Of a DNA stretch of 39,837 nt, positions 20,529 to 30,462 are shown one piece after another. A program made the position numbers and the translations under genes. Source of the stretch: Acidobacteria bacterium 13_2_20CM_57_17. Its GTDB lineage: Bacteria > Acidobacteriota > Terriglobia > Acidiferrales > UBA7541. The stretch is from assembly GCA_001914785.1 (NCBI GenBank), contig MNDE01000126.1, positions 1 through 39,837 of the forward strand. Direction: 5' to 3'. Under the pieces are notes generated by a model. That model was not told the DNA's origin. It saw nothing but the letters and a program-made list of their open reading frames with translations, and did not search any database. The stretch's first letter is position 1. Each line of letters opens with the position of its first letter.

Positions 20529-22178
20529 GTGAGAATCTTGTTTGTGGCATCGGAGGGGCTGCCGTTTTCGAAGACGGGCGGCCTGGCGGACGTGGTGGAA
20601 GCGCTGCCGAAGGCGCTGGTGGCGCAGGGCCACGAAGTGGCGGCGGTGTTGCCGCGATACCGCGGAACGAAAGCGACGGCAGTGGTGATGCCAAGCCTGA
20701 CAATTCCGATGGGCGGAGCGCGGCTGCGTTTTCCGGCGATTGCGGATGGCGCGGCGCTGAACGGCGTGCGGTATTTTTTTGTGGAAGATGCGGCGTACTT
20801 TGACCGCGATGGATTGTATGGCGGGAGCACCGGGGATTATCCGGACAATCCGGAGCGGTATGCGGAGTTCTGCCGCGCGGCGATTGAGATCGCAAAGCAC
20901 ATCTGGCCGACGGACGTGTTTCATTGCCACGACTGGCAATCGGCGCTGGTGCCGGTGCTGCTGCGGACTTCCTACAGCGACGATCCGCTGGTGAAAGACA
21001 TTCCCGTCGTTTTCTCGATTCACAACATGGGGTATCACGGGCAGTTCACGAGGGATGTTCTGGAGCGTGTGGGACTGCCGCCGGCGCTATTTCATCCGAC
21101 GGGGATTGAGTTTTTCGGGAGCGTGAACCTGTTGAAGGGTGGATTGGTTTTTTCGGATTATTTGACGACAGTGAGCAGGAAATACGCCGAAGAAATTCAG
21201 ACACGGGAATATGGGCATGGATTGGACGGAGTGGCAAAGAGCCGCGCGGACCGGCTAGTGGGAATTTTGAACGGCGTGGATTACGGGGCGTGGAATCCGG
21301 AGACGGACAAGCTGATCGCAGCGAACTATTCTGCGAAGGATTTGGGCGGGAAGCAGGTGTGCAAAGCGAACCTGCTGGAAGTGTTTGGATTGCCACCGGA
21401 ACACCTGAGCCGGCCGGTGATTGGAATCGTGTCGCGCTTCGCGGATCAAAAGGGATTCGATTTGATCGCAGAGAAAGCGCACGAATTGATGCGCGAAGAT
21501 TTGATGTTGGCGGTGCTGGGAAGCGGCGACCGCAAATACGAAAATCTGTTCCGGGCGCTGGCCGCGGCGTATCCAGGGCGCGTGGGCGTGAAGATCGCGT
21601 ACGACAACACGCTGGCACATAAAGTCGAAGCCGGCGCCGACATGTTCCTGATGCCTTCGCGCTACGAACCTTCGGGGTTGAATCAGATGTACAGCCTGAA
21701 GTATGGTACGGTGCCGATTGTGAGAGCCACCGGCGGGCTGGACGACAGCATCGAGCCGTTCGACGTGGAGCATGGGACAGGAACCGGGTTCAAGTTCAAG
21801 GAGTACACTGGCGAGGCGCTGTTGTTCGCGGTGCGGCAGGCGCTGCATCACTACATGGATGAGAGAATCTGGAAGCGCATCCAGTTGAACGGGATGGCGA
21901 AGGATTTTTCTTGGAAGACGCCTGCGGCGGAGTATGCGAAGCTGTACGAGGCCGCGCGAGTCGCACGGGGACTTTCGGCGGCGGTGAAAAGTTCAGGAAA
22001 GGCGGCTCGGAGCAAGGGGCAACCCACGCAGCAGCCCACGAAAGAACCGGAGCAAGCCCCTCAAAGCTCGGCGCAAGCCGAGCGCAAGCCGGAGCAGACG
22101 GCGCAAGCTACGGAACAAACGCCCAAGAAGTCAGGGCAAGGCGCAAGAAACCAAAAGCGTGCTGGAACATCTAATTGA
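20529..22178 (+). CDS. glgA: Glycogen synthase (ADP-glucose type, GT5)
   Basis: A 549-residue protein starting at GTG. The ADP-glucose-binding 'ASEGLPFSKTGGLADVVEAL' motif (Lys15 in KTGGL) opens the N-terminal Rossmann domain. Then come 'FHCHDWQSALVPVLLRT', 'VFSIHNMGYHGQF', 'TVSRKYAEEIQT' and 'GILNGVDYGAWNPETD'. The C-terminal GT-B half contains 'IGIVSRFADQKGFDLI' and 'MPSRYEPSGLNQMYSLKYGT'. It extends alpha-1,4-glucan chains for glycogen storage. The enzyme proper ends near residue 485; the last 60 or so residues are a low-complexity Gln/Lys/Glu/Pro/Ala tail. The thioredoxin gene starts 66 bases downstream. Confidence 0.95.
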   Translation: MRILFVASEGLPFSKTGGLADVVEALPKALVAQGHEVAAVLPRYRGTKATAVVMPSLTIPMGGARLRFPAIADGAALNGVRYFFVEDAAYFDRDGLYGGSTGDYPDNPERYAEFCRAAIEIAKHIWPTDVFHCHDWQSALVPVLLRTSYSDDPLVKDIPVVFSIHNMGYHGQFTRDVLERVGLPPALFHPTGIEFFGSVNLLKGGLVFSDYLTTVSRKYAEEIQTREYGHGLDGVAKSRADRLVGILNGVDYGAWNPETDKLIAANYSAKDLGGKQVCKANLLEVFGLPPEHLSRPVIGIVSRFADQKGFDLIAEKAHELMREDLMLAVLGSGDRKYENLFRALAAAYPGRVGVKIAYDNTLAHKVEAGADMFLMPSRYEPSGLNQMYSLKYGTVPIVRATGGLDDSIEPFDVEHGTGTGFKFKEYTGEALLFAVRQALHHYMDERIWKRIQLNGMAKDFSWKTPAAEYAKLYEAARVARGLSAAVKSSGKAARSKGQPTQQPTKEPEQAPQSSAQAERKPEQTAQATEQTPKKSGQGARNQKRAGTSN

Positions 22179-22244
22179 AATGGACTGAGGAGAAGGAGAT
22201 GCGGCGGCCCGCATGCGGCGGGCAAGCTGCTGAGGACAAAGAAC

Positions 22245-22583
22245 ATGGCGGATAATACAATTCAGACAGCAGATGACAAGAATTTCGAAGCTGAGGTGCT
22301 GACGGCCAGCAATGCGCAGCCGGTGATGGTGGATTTCTGGGCAGAATGGTGCCGCCCATGCCACATGCTCGCGCCGACGGTGGCGGAGATAGCGCACGAT
22401 TATGCGGGGAAGCTGAAAGTGATGAAATTGAACGTCGATGAAGCGATGAATTCGGCGGGCCGATATCGTGTGCAGGGAATCCCGACACTGTTGCTGTTCA
22501 AGAACGGACAAGTCGTCGAGCAGATCGTGGGAGCGGTGCCTAAAGAGCAGATCACCAAGGCTCTGGAACGGCACATCGGATAA
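22245..22583 (+). CDS. trxA: Thioredoxin with WCRPC active site
   Basis: A 112-residue single-domain thioredoxin. It has 'PVMVDFWAEWCRPCHMLAPT' with the redox pair Cys36/Cys39, then 'GKLKVMKLNVDEAMNSAGRY', 'VQGIPTLLLFKNGQVVEQIV' (cis-Pro loop GIPT) and 'GAVPKEQITKAL'. The usual WCGPC is WCRPC here, with His in place of the following Lys. Such changes in the two inner residues tune redox potential and partner choice in this family. No signal peptide, so cytoplasmic. An intrinsic terminator lies 22 bases after the stop, so it closes its transcription unit, possibly with glgA. Confidence 0.94.
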   Translation: MADNTIQTADDKNFEAEVLTASNAQPVMVDFWAEWCRPCHMLAPTVAEIAHDYAGKLKVMKLNVDEAMNSAGRYRVQGIPTLLLFKNGQVVEQIVGAVPKEQITKALERHIG

Positions 22584-22605
22584 TTTGAGGGCGAAGTTAC
22601 CGAGG

Positions 22606-22640
22606 CGCGTCGCGCGGAAAGGTGCGGCGCGTTTTTTTTT
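22606..22640 (+). terminator. Rho-independent terminator after trxA
   Basis: CGCGTCGCG (22606-22614) pairs with TGCGGCGCG (22623-22631) with two G-U wobbles and an 8-base loop, followed by nine T residues. Position 22 bases after the trxA stop and orientation both fit. Confidence 0.88.
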
Positions 22641-22687
22641 GTTTGGATTCGCGTACCGCTGCGGGTGTTAGCTCTGACATAAAAACC

Positions 22688-23272
22688 ATGGCGACAAGCA
22701 AACCAATCGCGCAACTGCGTTGTACCTGGGCGGCGAATGAGCTGAACATCCCGTACCACGATGAAGAGTGGGGCGTGCCCGTTCACGACGAGAAGAAGTG
22801 GTTTGAGTTTCTGATTTTGGAGGGCGCGCAGGCGGGGCTGAGCTGGGACACGATTTTGAAGAAACGCGCGCGGTATCGCGAAGTGTTTGACGGATTCGAT
22901 CCCGCGAAAGTGGCACGCTACGACAAAAAGAAAGTGCGCGACCTGCTCCGCGACGCGGGAATCATCCGCAACCGGCTGAAGGTCGACGCGGCGATTACGA
23001 ACGCGCGGGCGTTCCTGGAAGTGCAGAAAGAATTCGGTACATTTGATGTGTATGTGTGGCGCTTCGTCGGCGGCCAGCCCAAACAAAACGCGTGGAAAAG
23101 CCACAGCGGCCTCCCTGCAAAAACGGCGGAATCGGACGCGCTTAGCAAAGACTTACAGAAACGGGGATTCCGGTTTGTCGGATCGACCATTTGCTACGCA
23201 CTCATGCAAGCGACGGGCATGGTGAACGACCACCTGGTGAGTTGCTTCCGATATCGAGAATTGTCGAAATAG
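22688..23272 (+). CDS. tag: DNA-3-methyladenine glycosylase I
   Basis: A 194-residue protein from ATG at 22688; the track's extra N-terminus from 22622 would begin in the terminator T-run and is rejected. The Tag family signature is clear: 'RCTWAANELNIPYHDEEWGV' near the N-terminus (Zn-ligand Cys, catalytic region), 'FEFLILEGAQAGLSWDTIL', 'YREVFDGFDPAKVARYDKKK', 'IIRNRLKVDAAITNARAFL', and 'GFRFVGSTICYALMQATGMV' then NDHLVSCFRY (Zn-binding His and Cys). It excises 3-methyladenine from DNA. With the AAG-type glycosylase at the left edge, the genome has two unrelated enzymes for this lesion. Confidence 0.95.
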   Translation: MATSKPIAQLRCTWAANELNIPYHDEEWGVPVHDEKKWFEFLILEGAQAGLSWDTILKKRARYREVFDGFDPAKVARYDKKKVRDLLRDAGIIRNRLKVDAAITNARAFLEVQKEFGTFDVYVWRFVGGQPKQNAWKSHSGLPAKTAESDALSKDLQKRGFRFVGSTICYALMQATGMVNDHLVSCFRYRELSK

Positions 23273-23452
23273 GAGTCGGGGCACGCCTGCTTGCGTTGAA
23301 GGCGAGGCGAGCGTACGATTCTAAATTGTTGTTTCCCGCGAATTCCCGCCAGTAAATTTTCCTCTCAGGAAGTGACGGAGAGGGAAGGGTGCGGCCTCGA
23401 CCCATAGGGCAGGGCCCTGATGAGTCAAAGGGTGTGAAGAGAAAGGCGAAGA

Positions 23453-24751
23453 ATGAAATCCGTCGTGGTGGTGGGCGCGCAGTGGGGCGATGAAGGAAAA
23501 GGCAAAGTCGTCGACTATCTTTCCGGCTCGTTCGATTACATTGCCCGAGTAGCGGGCGGGCACAATGCCGGGCACACCGTCATCATCGGAAAAGACCGCT
23601 ACGTGCTGCAACTGATCCCGTGCGGAATTCTTCGCCCCAAACAACATGCGGTGATTGGCACTGGCGTGGTCGTCGATCCGGCCGCACTCGTTGCGGAGAT
23701 TGAAACGCTGTGCAAGGCGGGAGTCAACGTGGACAGCCGCCTGCATGTCAGCAATCGCGCGCACCTGATTTTTCCATATCACCGGGAGCTGGATAAAGCG
23801 GCGGAAGGCGCGCGCGGCGCAAATAAGATTGGCACGACTTCTCGGGGAATTGGCCCGGCCTATGAAGATAAGATGGCGCGGCGTGGGCTGCGGATGTGCG
23901 ACCTGTTGGAGCCCGAGTTGTTTCGAAAGAAGGCAGCGCACGTGGTGGCGGAGAAGAACTGTCTGGCGAAAGGCGCGTATGGAGCGGACATTGATTTTTC
24001 GCATGAAGTGGAAGAAACGCTGAAACTGGGCGAAAAGATCCGTGGATACATTTGCGATACGGCGGAATTGTTGAACCGCGCTTTGGACGAAGGGAAATCC
24101 GTGCTGTTCGAAGGCGCGCAGGGAACCATGCTGGATATCGACCATGGAACATATCCGTTCGTGACCTCCTCGAGCGCGACTTCAGGAGGAGCAGCGACGG
24201 GCGTGGGCGTGCCGCCGACGAAAATCAAGCACGTGCTCGGAATTTCGAAAGCCTACACGACGAGAGTAGGTGGCGGACCGTTTCCGACGGAAATGCCCGA
24301 CCTTGACGCGAAAGAAGTGCGCGAACGCGGAAAAGAATTTGGCGCGGTGACGGGGCGACCGCGGCGCTGCGGCTGGCTGGATTTGCAGGTGCTACGCTAC
24401 GCGAAAATGATCAATGGAATTGATTCGCTCGTAATTACCAAGCTGGACGTTTTTGACACACAGAAAGATATTCAGGTGTGTGTCGGATACAAGTACAAGG
24501 GAACGCAGCTGAAAGAAATGCCGGCGCTTGCAGAAGAATACGAGCAAGTCACGCCGGAATACAAGACGCTCGCTGGATGGAATGAAACCACGTACGGCGT
24601 GAAGGATGGAGAGAAACTCCCGAAAGCGGCGATCAACTATCTTAAGTTTATTTCCGATTTTCTGCAGGTGGAGATTGGGATGATTTCGACGGGACCGGAA
24701 CGCGACGCGACGATCGTGCCGGCGGGGACGCTGCTGTCGCGCTGGCTGTAG
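23453..24751 (+). CDS. purA: Adenylosuccinate synthetase
   Basis: A 432-residue protein of standard PurA length; it joins IMP and aspartate using GTP in AMP synthesis. The GTP-binding signature 'VVGAQWGDEGKGKVVDYL' is at the N-terminus, with 'GGHNAGHTVI' after it. Also present are 'IGTTSRGIGPAYEDKMARRG', 'LFEGAQGTMLDIDHGTYPFV', 'TRVGGGPFPTEM', the 'TGRPRRCGWLDL' loop and 'SLVITKLDVFD'. It is preceded by a 180-base gap without a recognised riboswitch. It stands alone; moeA begins about 100 bases downstream with a repeat between. Confidence 0.97.
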   Translation: MKSVVVVGAQWGDEGKGKVVDYLSGSFDYIARVAGGHNAGHTVIIGKDRYVLQLIPCGILRPKQHAVIGTGVVVDPAALVAEIETLCKAGVNVDSRLHVSNRAHLIFPYHRELDKAAEGARGANKIGTTSRGIGPAYEDKMARRGLRMCDLLEPELFRKKAAHVVAEKNCLAKGAYGADIDFSHEVEETLKLGEKIRGYICDTAELLNRALDEGKSVLFEGAQGTMLDIDHGTYPFVTSSSATSGGAATGVGVPPTKIKHVLGISKAYTTRVGGGPFPTEMPDLDAKEVRERGKEFGAVTGRPRRCGWLDLQVLRYAKMINGIDSLVITKLDVFDTQKDIQVCVGYKYKGTQLKEMPALAEEYEQVTPEYKTLAGWNETTYGVKDGEKLPKAAINYLKFISDFLQVEIGMISTGPERDATIVPAGTLLSRWL

Positions 24752-24762
24752 GAAGAAATTGG

Positions 24763-24786
24763 ACACAGAGGCACAGAGCCACTGAG
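24763..24786 (+). repeat. ACACAGAGGCACAGAG-type intergenic repeat
   Basis: Three imperfect units of about eight bases (ACACAGAG, GCACAGAG, CCACTGAG) lie between purA and moeA. A similar string (CCACAGAG, then GAGCTCAGAG) occurs at about 1201-1225. Such strings are common intergenic repeats in several bacterial genomes; function unknown. Confidence 0.5.
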
Positions 24787-24856
24787 TTTGGGGACGACAC
24801 AGAGTCGAGTCAGGCAAACCACGAGTTATCGCGAATTAGCTCAACAGAAAACCAGA

Positions 24857-26068
24857 ATGCTCAGCTACGAGCAAGCACGGAAGAAAGTCATCGAACAGGT
24901 TGAGAAGAGAAAAGGGCCTCGCGCGGTCGCCAGTGTGAGTGTGTGGAATGCGCTGGGATTGGTGCTGGCGCAAGAGGTGAAGACGGACCGCGAGTATCCG
25001 CCGTTTGACCGCTCGACGCGGGATGGGTATGCGGTCCGTTCGAATGAAATTTCGCCCGGCGCGCAACTTAAGTGCGCGGGGGAAATCAAAGCAGGCGATA
25101 CGGTTCGGGAATCGCTAGCCGCAGGAACGTGCTGGCAAATCATGACGGGGGCGGCGGTTCCGGCAAGCGCGGATGCCGTGGTGATGATGGAGCACACGAG
25201 CCGCGAAGGCGACCTGGTGCGATTCGAACGAGTGGTGCAGCGGGGGCAGAACATTGTCCCAAGAGGAAGCGAGGCCACGGCTGGGCAAACGATACTGAAG
25301 CCCGGCATGAGGCTCGGATATGCGGAGCTGGCGCTGGCGGCGCAAGTCGGGGCGGTGCAATTGCAGTGCGCGCAGCGGCCACGCGTCGCGATTCTTTCCA
25401 CGGGTGACGAAGTCGTTTTGATCGACGAAACGCCCGGCCCATTTCAGATTCGAAACAGCAACAGCGTTTCTCTTGCCGCACAGGTTCGTATTGCGGGTGG
25501 CGAGCCGGTAGTGCTGGGAAATGCGGCGGACCGCATCGAGGACTTGGCAGAGAAAATCGAGCACGGGTTGAAAGAAGATGCGCTGGTGCTGTCGGGCGGC
25601 GTCTCCATGGGGAAGTATGACCTGGTGGAAAGCGTGCTGAAAGCCATGGGCGCGGAGTTTTTTTTCGATGCCGTTGCAATCCGCCCCGGGAAGCCCGCGG
25701 TGTTTGGGATGTGCCAGGGCAAGCCTGTGTTCGGTTTGCCGGGCAATCCGGTTTCGACGATGGTGACGTTTGAATTGTTTGTGGTGCCTGCGATTGACTT
25801 GTTGTCCGGCGCGGAGGCGCGCGCGTTGCCGCTGGTCGAAACACGGCTTGCAGAAGCGCTAAACGAGAAGTCCGGGCTGACGCATTTCTTGCCAGCACGA
25901 GCGGAGTGGCGCGGGGGGATGCCTGAGGTGAAAGCGTTGAAGTGGCAAGGCTCGGGTGATATTACAGCGCTGGCGCAGGCGAACTGTTTCCTAGTGGTGC
26001 CGGCGGAACGAGAAAAGATCGAGCCCGGCGAGAGTGTCTCCGTGTTATTGAGGAAGGACGTAGTCTAA
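24857..26068 (+). CDS. moeA: Molybdopterin molybdenumtransferase
   Basis: About 403 residues from ATG at 24857 (MLSYEQARKKVIEQV); the track start at 24788 would include repeat-derived sequence. MoeA inserts molybdate into adenylylated molybdopterin. Family elements: 'DREYPPFDRSTRDGYAVRS', 'IMTGAAVPASADAVVMME', 'VVQRGQNIVPRGSEATAGQT', 'RVAILSTGDEVV', 'FQIRNSNSVSLAAQ', 'LSGGVSMGKYDLVESVL' and 'KPVFGLPGNPVSTMVTFELF', with the C-terminal domain IV after it. First gene of a Moco operon with moaC, a response regulator and mogA. The start lacks a strong Shine-Dalgarno. Confidence 0.95.
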   Translation: MLSYEQARKKVIEQVEKRKGPRAVASVSVWNALGLVLAQEVKTDREYPPFDRSTRDGYAVRSNEISPGAQLKCAGEIKAGDTVRESLAAGTCWQIMTGAAVPASADAVVMMEHTSREGDLVRFERVVQRGQNIVPRGSEATAGQTILKPGMRLGYAELALAAQVGAVQLQCAQRPRVAILSTGDEVVLIDETPGPFQIRNSNSVSLAAQVRIAGGEPVVLGNAADRIEDLAEKIEHGLKEDALVLSGGVSMGKYDLVESVLKAMGAEFFFDAVAIRPGKPAVFGMCQGKPVFGLPGNPVSTMVTFELFVVPAIDLLSGAEARALPLVETRLAEALNEKSGLTHFLPARAEWRGGMPEVKALKWQGSGDITALAQANCFLVVPAEREKIEPGESVSVLLRKDVV

Positions 26069-26078
26069 ACGAGGCTAG

Positions 26079-26573
26079 ATGGCCAAGCTGTCGCATTACG
26101 GAAATAAAGGCGAAGTGCGCATGGTGGACGTTTCGCAGAAGGTGGTGACGACGCGAACCGCGACGGCAAGAGGTTTTGTGAAGATGAAGCCGCGCGTGGT
26201 AAGCGCTGTCCGGCGGCTGAAAAACCCGAAAGGGAATCCGCTGGAAGTGGCGCGGATTGCGGGAATTGCCGCGGCCAAGAGGACCGCGGAGTGGATACCT
26301 CTTTGTCACTCACTGCCCTTGACGCACATTGATGTGACCGCGCGGCTGTGCCAGAATGGCGTGGAAGTGCATTCCACAGTGACCACGGCCGCCCAAACGG
26401 GCGTGGAAATGGAAGCCCTGGTCGCAGTTACCGCAGCGGCCCTCACGGTCTACGACATGTGCAAAGCCCTCGATAAAGGGATGGAAATCACGGACATTGT
26501 CCTCGTCGAAAAGACAGGTGGCAAGAGCGGGGACTTCCGCCGGCGGATGGCGCCGCTGAGGCGCACGCGATGA
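26079..26573 (+). CDS. moaC: Cyclic pyranopterin monophosphate synthase
   Basis: A 164-residue protein. MoaC turns 3',8-cyclo-GTP into cyclic pyranopterin monophosphate, the first stable Moco precursor. Signatures: 'VRMVDVSQKVVTTRTATARG', 'AAKRTAEWIPLCHSLPLTHI' and 'TGVEMEALVAVTAAALTVYD', then 'MCKALDKGMEITDIVLVEKT' and 'GGKSGDFRR'. It starts 10 bases after moeA, and its stop overlaps the next gene's ATG (ATGA), so the response regulator is translationally coupled to it. MoaA, its partner enzyme, is not in this window. Confidence 0.97.
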   Translation: MAKLSHYGNKGEVRMVDVSQKVVTTRTATARGFVKMKPRVVSAVRRLKNPKGNPLEVARIAGIAAAKRTAEWIPLCHSLPLTHIDVTARLCQNGVEVHSTVTTAAQTGVEMEALVAVTAAALTVYDMCKALDKGMEITDIVLVEKTGGKSGDFRRRMAPLRRTR

Positions 26574-27328
26574 CCACCGCAGGGCACAAAACCATAAAGT
26601 TGCTCCTGGCGGAGGATAATCCGCTGGTGCGCGATTTGATCGTGAAGGGACTTGAGCCGTTCTGCCTGGTGGAATCGTCCACGGACGGCGCGGACGCGCT
26701 CCTTAAGGTTGTGGATACTCCTCCTGACGTGATTTTGTGCGATTACAAGATGCCCGGCCTGGATGGCAGGCAGCTCTTTGAGAAGCTGCGCACGCGCGAG
26801 CCAACACGGCACATCCCTTTCTTATTCATGGCCAGCCGGTCGGATATCGAGGAGCGGCTGAGGCCGCTTGTGGATGGCGTCGAGGATTTTATCCCCAAGC
26901 CATTTTTGATTAAGGACCTGGTGCGCATCACGAAAAAGGTTGTCGATCGCCTGCACCTTGAGAAGCTGCAGAAAAAGGCGTCACGGCCGGGTGTCATTCA
27001 AGGTCGGCTCGAAGAGATGAGCATGATCGACCTGATGCAGTCGCTGGAGATGGGGCAGAAGTCGTGCCGGTTGATCGTGCAGAGCGGCGGCGCCCAAGGC
27101 GAACTTTATTTTGCGAGCGGGCAATGCCGCGACGCGAAAATCGGCAAACTCGAAGGTGATGATGCGGTTTATAAAGTGGTTCTGTGGACGGCGGGAGAAT
27201 TCGAGATCGATTTCAACGCCGCGAATGCCTCGACAAAGACGACCACGACGCGCAATACCACCGGCCTGTTGATGGAAGCCATGCGGCTGATGGACGAAGC
27301 CAACCGCGATACGGTCGAGACGCCGTGA
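26570..27328 (+). CDS. Response regulator with C-terminal PATAN/DUF4388 domain, inside Moco operon
   Basis: A 252-residue protein. Residues 1 to about 128 form a receiver domain: acidic pair in LLLAEDNP (Glu15/Asp16), phospho-acceptor Asp58 in VILCDYKMPGLDG, and Lys110 in DFIPKPF. By hand alignment, the conserved Thr/Ser that relays the switch is Ala88 (FLFMASRSD). Residues from about 140 (IQGRLEEMSMIDLMQSLEMG, then KSCRLIVQSGGAQGELYFAS and 'DAVYKVVLWTAGEFEIDF') match the PATAN/DUF4388 domain, known from regulators of gliding or secretion in bacteria such as Myxococcus and cyanobacteria. There is no DNA-binding domain. It overlaps moaC by ATGA and precedes mogA by 22 bases. No cognate kinase is nearby. 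Confidence 0.88.
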   Translation: MTTAGHKTIKLLLAEDNPLVRDLIVKGLEPFCLVESSTDGADALLKVVDTPPDVILCDYKMPGLDGRQLFEKLRTREPTRHIPFLFMASRSDIEERLRPLVDGVEDFIPKPFLIKDLVRITKKVVDRLHLEKLQKKASRPGVIQGRLEEMSMIDLMQSLEMGQKSCRLIVQSGGAQGELYFASGQCRDAKIGKLEGDDAVYKVVLWTAGEFEIDFNAANASTKTTTTRNTTGLLMEAMRLMDEANRDTVETP

Positions 27329-27350
27329 GTCTCACGAAGAAACCTTCCCG

Positions 27351-27827
27351 ATGCGCGTTGCAGTCCTAACGATCAGCGACTCCGTGACAAAAGGCGAGCG
27401 AGAGGATTTGTCCGGCCCCGCGGTTGTTGCATTTTGCCGTGGACTGGGTTGGGAAATTGCGTCGATGCTGCACGTCTCCGACGATCCCGCAAGCATCCGC
27501 GAGCAGATGCGCGCCGTGGCGGATTCCGGCCGCGTGGACGTTCTCTTGACCACAGGTGGAACGGGGATCGGGCCACGGGATAATACGCCCGAAGCGACTC
27601 AGGCCGTAGCTGACCGCATCGTGCCCGGACTTTCCGAAGAAATGCGGCGCAAGGGATTAGAGAAAACGCCGGCGGCGGTTTTATCGCGCGGGACTGCCGC
27701 CGTGCGAACGAAGACCCTCATCGTCAATTTGCCGGGAAGCCCCAAGGGCGCAGTGGAGTCCCTAGAAGTCGTGGCACACTTGTTGCCGCACGCGGTAAAA
27801 GTTCTCCATGGAGCACGGCACGACTAG
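27351..27827 (+). CDS. mogA: Molybdopterin adenylyltransferase (MogA/MoaB family)
   Basis: A 158-residue protein. It adenylylates molybdopterin for metal insertion by MoeA. It opens MRVAVLTISDSVTKGEREDL and carries 'VDVLLTTGGTGIGPRDNTPE' (substrate-binding GGTG loop), then 'SRGTAAVRTKTLIVNLPGSP' and KGAVESLEVVAHLLPHAVKV. These match MogA and MoaB-type proteins, which cannot be told apart by eye. Last gene of the moeA-moaC-response regulator-mogA run. Its stop TAG lies in CTAG, shared with the stop of the convergent DoxX-like gene. Confidence 0.94.
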   Translation: MRVAVLTISDSVTKGEREDLSGPAVVAFCRGLGWEIASMLHVSDDPASIREQMRAVADSGRVDVLLTTGGTGIGPRDNTPEATQAVADRIVPGLSEEMRRKGLEKTPAAVLSRGTAAVRTKTLIVNLPGSPKGAVESLEVVAHLLPHAVKVLHGARHD

Positions 27828-28249
27828 GCCGCGTTTGGACGCCGGAACGGCAGAAGGGCGCGCAGCCGCTCCTCGCGCAAGTAAAGACCTCCCCACAACA
27901 GCACGCCCAAATACGTCGGGAACAAGACATGGCTGAATAATGGATCGCCGGCGCGTAAGTGCGTGGCAACGGCACCGCCAAGATAACCAGTCAGCAAGAT
28001 CGCGCCAAGAATCGAGGTCTTCGGAATGACATAGAGGACAGTGGACACTAACAAGATCATCCCGAGAACTGGAGCGAGGTTAAGGGGCCAACCCACGTGA
28101 GTGAATGCCTCCACTACGGGGGCCGGAGCCGGCGTTACAAATTTTAAAACGACGTCAAAAGCGAGGAACGCGACAACCAATCCGCTGATGATACGTCCGG
28201 CCCAGAGACCTTTCCTCGAGATGGGGGCAGATTGCGTGTCTGGGGGCAT
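27824..28249 (-). CDS. DoxX-like membrane protein
   Basis: A 141-residue protein with four hydrophobic segments (GRIISGLVVAFLAFDVVLKF; LNLAPVLGMILLVSTVLYVI; ILGAILLTGYLGGAVATHLR; VLFPTYLGVLLWGGLYL). The third contains 'ILLTGYLGGAVATHLRAGDP', a recognisable DoxX-like (PF13564) pattern. Members are small inner-membrane proteins with poorly known roles, often next to redox or stress genes. A clear GGAGG lies seven bases before ATG. It shares its stop-codon CTAG with mogA, so the two genes converge without a gap. It is downstream of, and possibly co-transcribed with, the MoaD-like/propeller pair. Confidence 0.88.
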   Translation of the reverse strand: MPPDTQSAPISRKGLWAGRIISGLVVAFLAFDVVLKFVTPAPAPVVEAFTHVGWPLNLAPVLGMILLVSTVLYVIPKTSILGAILLTGYLGGAVATHLRAGDPLFSHVLFPTYLGVLLWGGLYLREERLRALLPFRRPNAA

Positions 28250-28349
28250 GAGTTTTCCTCCGTATATCCTTCAGATTGTAATACCAAAAGTTTGTGAAGG
28301 TGTTTCCTGTATTGCAGGACAGCGACAGTTCCGTTGCGATGGTCGGTCC

Positions 28350-28646
28350 TTAACCGCCGGCGATGGCCCCGATGATGAGCAGAGGCTCCGCTCCCGAGGC
28401 GACGGCATCCGGCAACGGCGTATCCGGCGGCTCAAGAGAATAGTCTTCCGCGCAAGCGAAAAATCGCAAAAACGGGCGGCGCTCCTGCGTGACATGATCC
28501 CGGATGGTGCCGCGCAGCATCGGGTATTGCGCCTCGAGGGCGTCGAGCACCGAGCGCTGCGTGACCGGGCCCTCGACATGAAGCTGAATCTCCGGACCGA
28601 CGCGCGCCAGCGCCCTCAGATGGCCCGGGAGGACAACGCGAATCAT
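28350..28646 (-). CDS. MoaD/ThiS-like small protein ending in Gly-Gly
   Basis: A 98-residue protein from ATG at 28646. It opens [16 protein letters not shown], continues [20 protein letters not shown], then [20 protein letters not shown], and ends '[10 protein letters not shown]'. That is the beta-grasp (ubiquitin-like) MoaD/ThiS pattern with the C-terminal di-glycine that is activated as a thiocarboxylate. The start overlaps the propeller gene's stop as ATGA, so the two are translated together. The track's longer version (to 28769) is antisense to nothing useful and begins inside the propeller gene. A MoaD role in Moco synthesis is possible but unproven: moaE and moeB are not in the window, and the nearby Moco operon is on the other strand. 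Confidence 0.85.
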
Positions 28647-29827
28647 GGCAGCGTCTGGACCTCGACAGAAAGTACGGCTGGGAGGTGTTCGACGATGGGA
28701 GACCAACTGTCGCCCGCGTCGGCGGAACCGTATACCTGCCCGCCCGTCGTGCCAAAGTAGACGCCACATTTATCGAGCGAGTCGACGGCCATGGCGTCGC
28801 GCAATACGTTTACGTAGCAGTCCTTTTGCGGCAACCCCTTGGTCAGCGCTTCCCATTCGTTGCCGCCGGATTTGCTGCGGTAGACGCGCAACTTGCCCTC
28901 AAGAGGGAAATGTTCTCCGTCGCTCTTGATCGGCACAACGTAAATGGTTTCCGGTTCGTGGGCGTGGACGTCAATCACGAAGCCAAAGTCGGTCGGCAGG
29001 TTGCCACTGACCTCTTTCCACAAGTCACCCGCATTGTCGCTGCGCATCACGTCCCAGTGCTTCTGCATGAAGAGGACATTCGGGCGGGAGGGATGCATGG
29101 CGACGTGATGAACGCAGTGGCCGACCTCGGCGGTTGGCTCGGGGATGTATTGGGAATGGAGGCCCTTGTTGATGGGCTTCCAGGTCTTGCCACCGTCGTC
29201 GGTCCGAAATGCGCCCGCTGCCGAGATGGCGATATAGATACGCTTGGGATCTTTGCGATCCAAAATGATGGTGTGAAGGCACATGCCACCGGCGCCGGGT
29301 TGCCAGCGGGGGCCGGTGCCGTGGCCTCGCAGTCCGGCGAGTTCTTTCCAGTTCCTACCGCCGTCCGTCGAGCGGAATATGCCAGCGTCTTCCACTCCGG
29401 CATAAACGGTGTCTGGATCGGTCGGCGACGGTTCGAGATGCCAGACACGCTTGAATTCCCAGGGATGCTGCGTGCCGTCGTACCACATGTGGGTGGTGAG
29501 AGGTTTGCCGGTTTCCGCGGACGTGTCGTAGACGAACTTATTGCTCTCGCCTTTGGGCGGGCCCGGCTTGGCGTCCTTCTCCCCCGGCGGCGTCCCCGGC
29601 TGTATCCAAGTCTTGCCGCCGTCATCGGAGCGCCGAATGATCTGCCCGAACCAGCCGCTGGTCTGCGACGCATAGATGCGATTAGGGTCGGCTGGCGAGC
29701 CCTTGAGGTGATACATCTCCCATCCCGCAAAATGCGGACCGCTGACATCCCATTTTTGGCGCTTGCCGTCCGATGTCAGGACAAATGCGCCCTTACGCGT
29801 TCCAACCAGCACCCGTACTCCGCTCAT
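28643..29827 (-). CDS. BNR/Asp-box beta-propeller protein (sialidase-like fold)
   Basis: A 394-residue protein made of BNR/Asp-box repeats. The S/T-x-D-G-G-x-T/S-W motif appears as [32 protein letters not shown] and SADAGDSW, with linking strands such as '[20 protein letters not shown]', '[20 protein letters not shown]' and '[19 protein letters not shown]'. This is the sialidase/sortilin-like propeller fold often labelled 'exo-alpha-sialidase' or 'glycosyl hydrolase', but no catalytic Arg triad or Tyr/Glu pair is evident. There is no signal peptide (it begins [20 protein letters not shown]), so it looks cytoplasmic. It heads a unit with the MoaD-like gene and is divergent from the HxlR regulator. 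Confidence 0.9.
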
Positions 29828-29920
29828 GGCTCACTCCCTCTTGTGCTTCGTGTATGCATAAACTAGAGTGCTCGAAACTCTCCATAACAACCACTCATTG
29901 TGCACGAAACTATGCCAATC

Positions 29921-29942
29921 TTACTTGCAAAATACAAGTTAA
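29921..29942. promoter_or_regulatory. Candidate HxlR operator between propeller gene and regulator
   Basis: The imperfect dyad TTACTTG ... CAAGTTAA has a core ACTTG (29923-29927) and CAAGT (29935-29939) with a 7-base spacer, in the 134-base divergent gap. A TATGCT (29945-29950) just after it is a possible -10 for the HxlR gene, so binding there could cause autoregulation. Inferred from position and symmetry only. Confidence 0.45.
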
Positions 29943-29961
29943 AATATGCTAGAGTGAAAAT

Positions 29962-30462
29962 GTGCCAAGGAAAAAGGCGGATTCCAAGCGGCGGTCGGGG
30001 TGTCCGCTGAATGCTTCGGTGGAGATCCTGGGCGACCGCTGGTCGCTGCTGATCATCCGCGACATGATGCTGCGGGGCTTCCGTACTTACAAAGAGTTCC
30101 TGGGGTCCTACGAGGGAATCGCAACGAATATTTTGGCCGATCGCCTGCGAAAGTTGATCGCTCACGGAATTATCACCACCGAGAAAAACCCATTGGACGG
30201 ACGGAAAGTAATTTACTCGCTCACGCCGAAGGGAATCGATCTAGCGCCGGTCCTTACAGAAATGGTTCTGTGGGCCGCGGCGCACGAAGACACAGCCAAT
30301 CAGGCGCTTGTCCACGAAATGCGAAAGGACAAGGAGAAATTCACATCCGCCATACGGCAACGCTGGGCCGAAACGGCCCGAGCGCCGAAGCGCTTTAGGT
30401 CACTCCGATCGCAGCGCCTCCGTGACGTCGACGCGCGCCGCGCGCGCCGCGGGCAGCACTGA
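29962..30462 (+). CDS. HxlR-family transcriptional regulator
   Basis: A 166-residue protein starting at GTG. The HxlR winged helix is clear: 'CPLNASVEILGDRWSLLIIR', then DMMLRGFRTYKEFLGSYEGI, ATNILADRLRKLIAHGIITT and 'LDGRKVIYSLTPKGIDLAPV'. HxlR proteins often sense aldehydes, quinones or other electrophiles through a conserved N-terminal cysteine, present here as Cys in SGCPLN. The last 20 or so residues (SQRLRDVDARRARRGQH) are antisense to the conserved end of the ADOP gene and so are probably an accidental extension from a lost stop. It is divergent from the propeller/MoaD-like pair with a palindrome between, which suggests it controls them. Confidence 0.9.
   Translation: MPRKKADSKRRSGCPLNASVEILGDRWSLLIIRDMMLRGFRTYKEFLGSYEGIATNILADRLRKLIAHGIITTEKNPLDGRKVIYSLTPKGIDLAPVLTEMVLWAAAHEDTANQALVHEMRKDKEKFTSAIRQRWAETARAPKRFRSLRSQRLRDVDARRARRGQH

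Follow-up and report, generated by a model that had tools for sequence, protein, structure and literature searches.

An orphan response regulator that joins a receiver to a PATAN domain (REC-PATAN) is encoded within the molybdenum cofactor (Moco) operon of the DNA analysed here, a stretch of 39,837 nucleotides that we call the window. The genomic comparisons presented below indicate that this protein, expressed from the Moco operon, probably regulates the type IV pilus extension motor PilB and not Moco synthesis, a reading to which we assign a probability of roughly 0.6. Type IV pili are filaments that cells use for movement and attachment. Such a role would mean that the PATAN–PilB link, described in cyanobacteria, also operates in a major phylum of soil bacteria; it would mark MshEN, a domain of PilB, as a place where docking may occur, and would be a clear case of deep gene-order conservation pointing to the wrong partner.

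The regulator gene (positions 26570–27328, forward strand) encodes 252 amino acids, in which a receiver domain (residues 12–119, positions 26603–26926; Pfam Response_reg, PF00072, E-value 3.7e-18) is followed by a DUF4388 domain, which we take to be the PATAN domain (residues 144–244, positions 26999–27301; PF14332, E-value 1e-20). Its neighbours lie on the same strand. Upstream are purA (23453–24751; PF00709, 593.7 bits, and synteny), a neighbour conserved in many relatives and used here as the unrelated control gene; moeA (24860–26068; PF03453, PF00994, and PF03454), the first Moco gene of the cluster; and, immediately before the regulator, moaC (26079–26573; TIGR00581, 193.7 bits for a cut-off of 141.5). 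Downstream is a gene for a MogA-type molybdopterin adenylyltransferase, mogA (27351–27827; PF00994 and TIGR00177). The start of the regulator overlaps moaC by four bases (ATGA), and the mogA ATG at 27351 lies 22 bases past the regulator end, the layout that the initial annotation had described. The Pfam scan also agreed with it that the 252 amino acids hold no DNA-binding domain, and no histidine kinase was recognised among the scanned window genes, most of the window having been judged by eye. No enzymatic output domain was found by Pfam or in the AlphaFold2 model. Since its start overlaps the moaC stop, the regulator and MoaC are probably co-produced from the Moco operon, and the missing DNA-binding domain suggests that it acts post-translationally. 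Fusions of the regulator with MoaC or MogA were not noticed, and the reading frames differ where the start overlaps moaC by four bases. The AlphaFold2 model (mean pLDDT 88.9) shows the last receiver helix continuing as a single long helix (residues 114–136) towards the PATAN domain. Modelled by itself, the PATAN domain reached a pLDDT of 89.6, and no relative of solved structure was found for it by sequence or by fold (best E 0.13).

Within the window's family and order, most of the genomes searched have the regulator, and it also occurs in several other families of their class, the Terriglobia (Acidobacteriota); wherever present in this class, it sits within the Moco gene cluster. Searches of relatives, of the class, and of named genomes were pooled into 126 distinct orthologous loci, a 127th row (L199) being a non-Moco relative from another class. 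In all 126, moaC is the gene directly before the regulator, in the same orientation, and 123 have mogA directly downstream; in the other three the contigs end less than 300 bases from the regulator. In several genomes moeA has moved elsewhere and the moaC-regulator-mogA group is kept together. The initial annotation had staked the place of the gene in the operon on its not being absent there from all relatives; these loci share the position, with a constant order wherever the regulator occurs, and the claim survives. An earlier report of this arrangement was not found in the open-access literature, a scope that leaves most subscription papers outside. Two genomes each hold two moeA-moaC-regulator-mogA cassettes: G033 (C20, locus L067, and C36, locus L077) and G121 (C115, locus L055, and C77, locus L056). 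On the MoeA+MoaC tree the C20 copy of G033 falls among members of another family, which points to horizontal transfer or binning contamination.

In the receiver, D16, D58 (26741–26743), and K110 (26897–26899) are invariant in the orthologues and position 15 is Asp or Glu, so that the acidic pair, the phosphoacceptor Asp, and the conserved Lys are all present. The residues once aligned by hand hold in the full alignment, where D58 and K110 are conserved in 78 of 78 orthologues and position 88 is Ala in 76. In a larger set, which counts some genomes more than once, Ala88 (26831–26833) replaces the switch Thr/Ser in 159 of 163 Moco-linked sequences; 21 of the 25 non-Moco PATAN receivers of the same alignment have Thr/Ser. 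Loci L071–L073 of family f10, listed with the non-Moco group in that alignment, are in fact linked to Moco genes and carry Ala. The aromatic switch on strand 5 is retained (Phe/Tyr at position 107 in 75/78). Judged from sequence, the receiver pocket looks phosphorylatable, with the usual Thr-aromatic coupling apparently broken, and the Ala at the switch position makes a non-standard on/off coupling probable. In the PATAN domain, Cys166 (27065–27067) is near-invariant in the Moco-linked clade; most other PATANs have Gly.

In Synechocystis, PATAN receivers reportedly bind PilB1, the motor of the pilus (PMC10519157, PMC9090330, PMC7690835), and for this reason the PilB model TIGR02538 was tested here. 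In a first set of genomes, PilB scored above the curated cut-off of this model in 28 of 28 carriers of the regulator and in 9 of 28 non-carriers. Among 399 class members with completeness of at least 90%, 97 presented both regulator and PilB, 4 the regulator only, 30 PilB only, and 268 neither. The four exceptions do contain PilB, as revealed by direct protein search: G055 and G543 have the gene divided between contigs, in G557 it is partial, and the PilB of G030 is 92% identical yet falls under the model threshold. No carrier without PilB was therefore found (101/101, counting split, partial, and altered genes), and the window genome itself has a pilB-pilT-pilC-pilS-pilR cluster. PATAN proteins of any kind are almost absent from non-carriers. 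The raw association between regulator and PilB is inflated by shared ancestry: with five supported phylogeny-corrected pairs, zero to three were concordant depending on the pairing (mean 1.6) and none was discordant, which is too few events for significance. PilB does not need the regulator, as the 30 genomes that hold it alone indicate. In lineages g12, f5, and f9, members without the regulator still carry PilB, so that the loss of the regulator gene may precede, or the decay of the pilus may drive both losses. One non-carrier without canonical PilB (G115) has four DUF4388 matches, and a genome placed in family f5 (G535) has two PilB copies, the tree-placed one grouping with family f1, likely by assembly contamination.

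PilB evolves faster, or is missing, where the regulator is gone. The ratio of PilB to Moco distances was 0.462 ± 0.041 in genomes with the regulator (n=42), versus 0.515–0.770 in eight genomes without it, which come from about six separate lineages; the Mann-Whitney test (p=1.7e-7) ignores kinship, and genomes of the same branch are not independent points. Long PilB branches belong to non-carriers, except for G658 and G732 of genus g303, which have the lowest-scoring full-length regulators and also the lowest-scoring PilB among the carriers. In this genus the two proteins may have changed as a pair. Six PilB sites are conserved in carriers and relaxed in non-carriers, and four of them lie in MshEN, versus 24 of the 228 conserved sites overall, a concentration with p of about 0.001 (0.001–0.013 over thresholds). 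Distances between regulators correlate best with those of PilB (partial r 0.49 given PurA, MoeA, MoaC, and MogA), with overlapping subsample ranges for the PilB and PurA partial correlations and with an inflation of distance correlations that arises because PilB is clock-like.

We propose that the orphan regulator has as its output PilB, the motor that extends type IVa pili. Docking onto the PilB hexamer would probably be through the PATAN domain, with the N-terminal MshEN domain as a possible site, and the receiver would decide between docking and no docking, presumably according to its phosphorylation. The location in the Moco operon may bring some benefit, but the constant position between moaC and mogA is unexplained by a role on PilB.

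One alternative accounts for that position by giving it a meaning of its own: the regulator would act on PilB and its place in the operon would tie pilus extension to molybdenum or respiratory status, through co-expression or through contact with both partners. The constant operon place and the dependence on PilB are both real associations and speak for such a tie. We consider it rather unlikely, as no Moco riboswitch or other RNA family matched positions 22000–30000, nothing points to control of the operon by molybdenum, and MoaC and MogA bear no trace of an interface.

The initial annotation had instead suggested a post-translational link between Moco synthesis and a signalling pathway. A conserved regulator without a DNA-binding domain, its altered receiver, and its inseparability from moaC and mogA are supported; Moco synthesis as the target is not. 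In its explicit form, the idea makes the regulator an adaptor that, depending on its phosphorylation, would bind one of MoaC, MogA, and MoeA and so control the synthesis of Moco, which appears unlikely. It agrees with the unbroken moaC-regulator-mogA order of the 126 loci, with the ATGA overlap, and with the existence of a known family of MoaC-MoaB fusions (NCBIfam PRK03604), whose model is matched by both MoaC and MogA of the window. These fusions show moaC and a mogA/moaB-type gene as natural partners, but in the window the two are distinct genes and the regulator stands between. Against an adaptor of this kind, the regulator has been lost repeatedly with the Moco genes intact. Of 42 class genomes without a detected regulator, 35 keep moaC, mostly accompanied by moeA and often by a directly adjacent mogA, and moeA-moaC(-mogA) persists without the regulator in many lineages. 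Its presence changes about eight times on the MoeA+MoaC tree, at least five of them on well-supported branches; two members of one genus differ (G131 with, G143 without), and it is absent from all five genomes of genus g12, which is nested in the window's family. The presence of the regulator follows PilB instead.

The Moco proteins themselves point the same way. At the cut-offs applied to PilB, no residue of MoaC or MogA is conserved only alongside the regulator, and MoeA has three such sites; looser cut-offs leave one site each in MoeA and MoaC. Distance correlations of MoeA and MogA with the regulator were high at first, and that of MogA fell to zero after PilB was added, the partial r being 0.03 for MogA, −0.12 for MoaC, and a residual 0.31 for MoeA, the last favouring an adaptor. 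Together these comparisons of sequences speak against MoaC or MogA as a dedicated target. Dependence on molybdoenzymes was rejected as well, since enzymes of the DMSO-reductase and xanthine-oxidase families occur both with and without the regulator.

A different output within the same machinery has also been considered. The regulator could belong to a surface-motility package that is lost when the type IV pilus decays, and act on another pilus protein or on a c-di-GMP enzyme. Co-loss cannot name the exact partner, and another pilus component could be it; in addition, several related REC-PATAN proteins from other parts of the phylum are fused with HD-GYP or TPR proteins or encoded next to them. 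The change in PilB rate, the clustering of relaxed sites in MshEN, and the published binding of PATAN proteins to PilB favour the motor, and we regard this proposal as improbable. PATANs have been reported near MglA/B genes (PMC4316618), and an MglB/Roadblock partner was rejected here, Roadblock being absent from nearly all carriers.

Far more speculative is a receiver that informs the pilus motor directly of molybdenum or Moco status. Its Ala88 pocket might admit a larger oxyanion, molybdate for example, that mimics the phosphoryl group; the fold matches include a structure of CheY with molybdate (3rvr), and surface motility would in that case follow cofactor supply. That the gene landed here by chance, serves no conserved function, and stays through operon inertia is hardly credible: the one point in favour is that the protein has no obvious connection with Moco chemistry, and the idea is already contradicted by conservation, namely strong purifying selection (dN/dS about 0.03–0.08), 24 invariant positions across the class, and a constant place.

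The proposed regulator of PilB can be compared with PixE, PixG, LsiR, and TaxP2 of Synechocystis, with which it shares a receiver, a PATAN domain, the lack of a DNA-binding domain, and a tie to PilB. The PATAN domain is described as N-terminal to the receiver in PixG, PilG, and TaxP2 (PMC10519157), whereas the receiver comes first here, a difference that bears on the subtype and not on the domain family. The Synechocystis genes belong to tax operons or have a photoreceptor as neighbour, and the present one is an orphan in a moeA-moaC-regulator-mogA operon; it also differs in its Ala switch, and its binding to PilB is a prediction. REC-PATAN proteins of other Acidobacteriota classes have both domains in the same order and about 26–36% identity to the regulator, but none is near moa genes, their switch residue is mostly Thr/Ser, and several are joined to an HD-GYP or TPR protein or have one as a neighbour.

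Besides the regulator, the window genome has a single PATAN protein, which belongs to a chemosensory operon (L222 475–9546; G000:C66, about 20.5–29.5 kb) with the order MCP-CheR-CheA(hybrid)-CheB-CheW-CheW-(REC-PATAN)-REC, a layout which resembles the Synechocystis tax systems and is similar in L224, from another family. This REC-PATAN (L222 7979–8749) has the same domain order as the regulator and a similar length, but it is about 25% identical to it, and the che operon around it is complete and includes a dedicated CheA. Of the genomes with the Moco-operon form, only some also have the chemosensory one. The hybrid CheA, or PilS beside pilB-pilT-pilC, could in principle phosphorylate the regulator; as many carriers have no chemosensory PATAN, naming the kinase is a guess.

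Past mogA, the window encodes on the reverse strand a protein of 98 amino acids (28350–28646) with a MoaD/ThiS-type appearance by eye and no Pfam or NCBIfam match. Its gene overlaps by ATGA that of a BNR/sortilin-like beta-propeller (28643–29827, reverse strand), a gene which also occurs shortly past mogA in some relatives.
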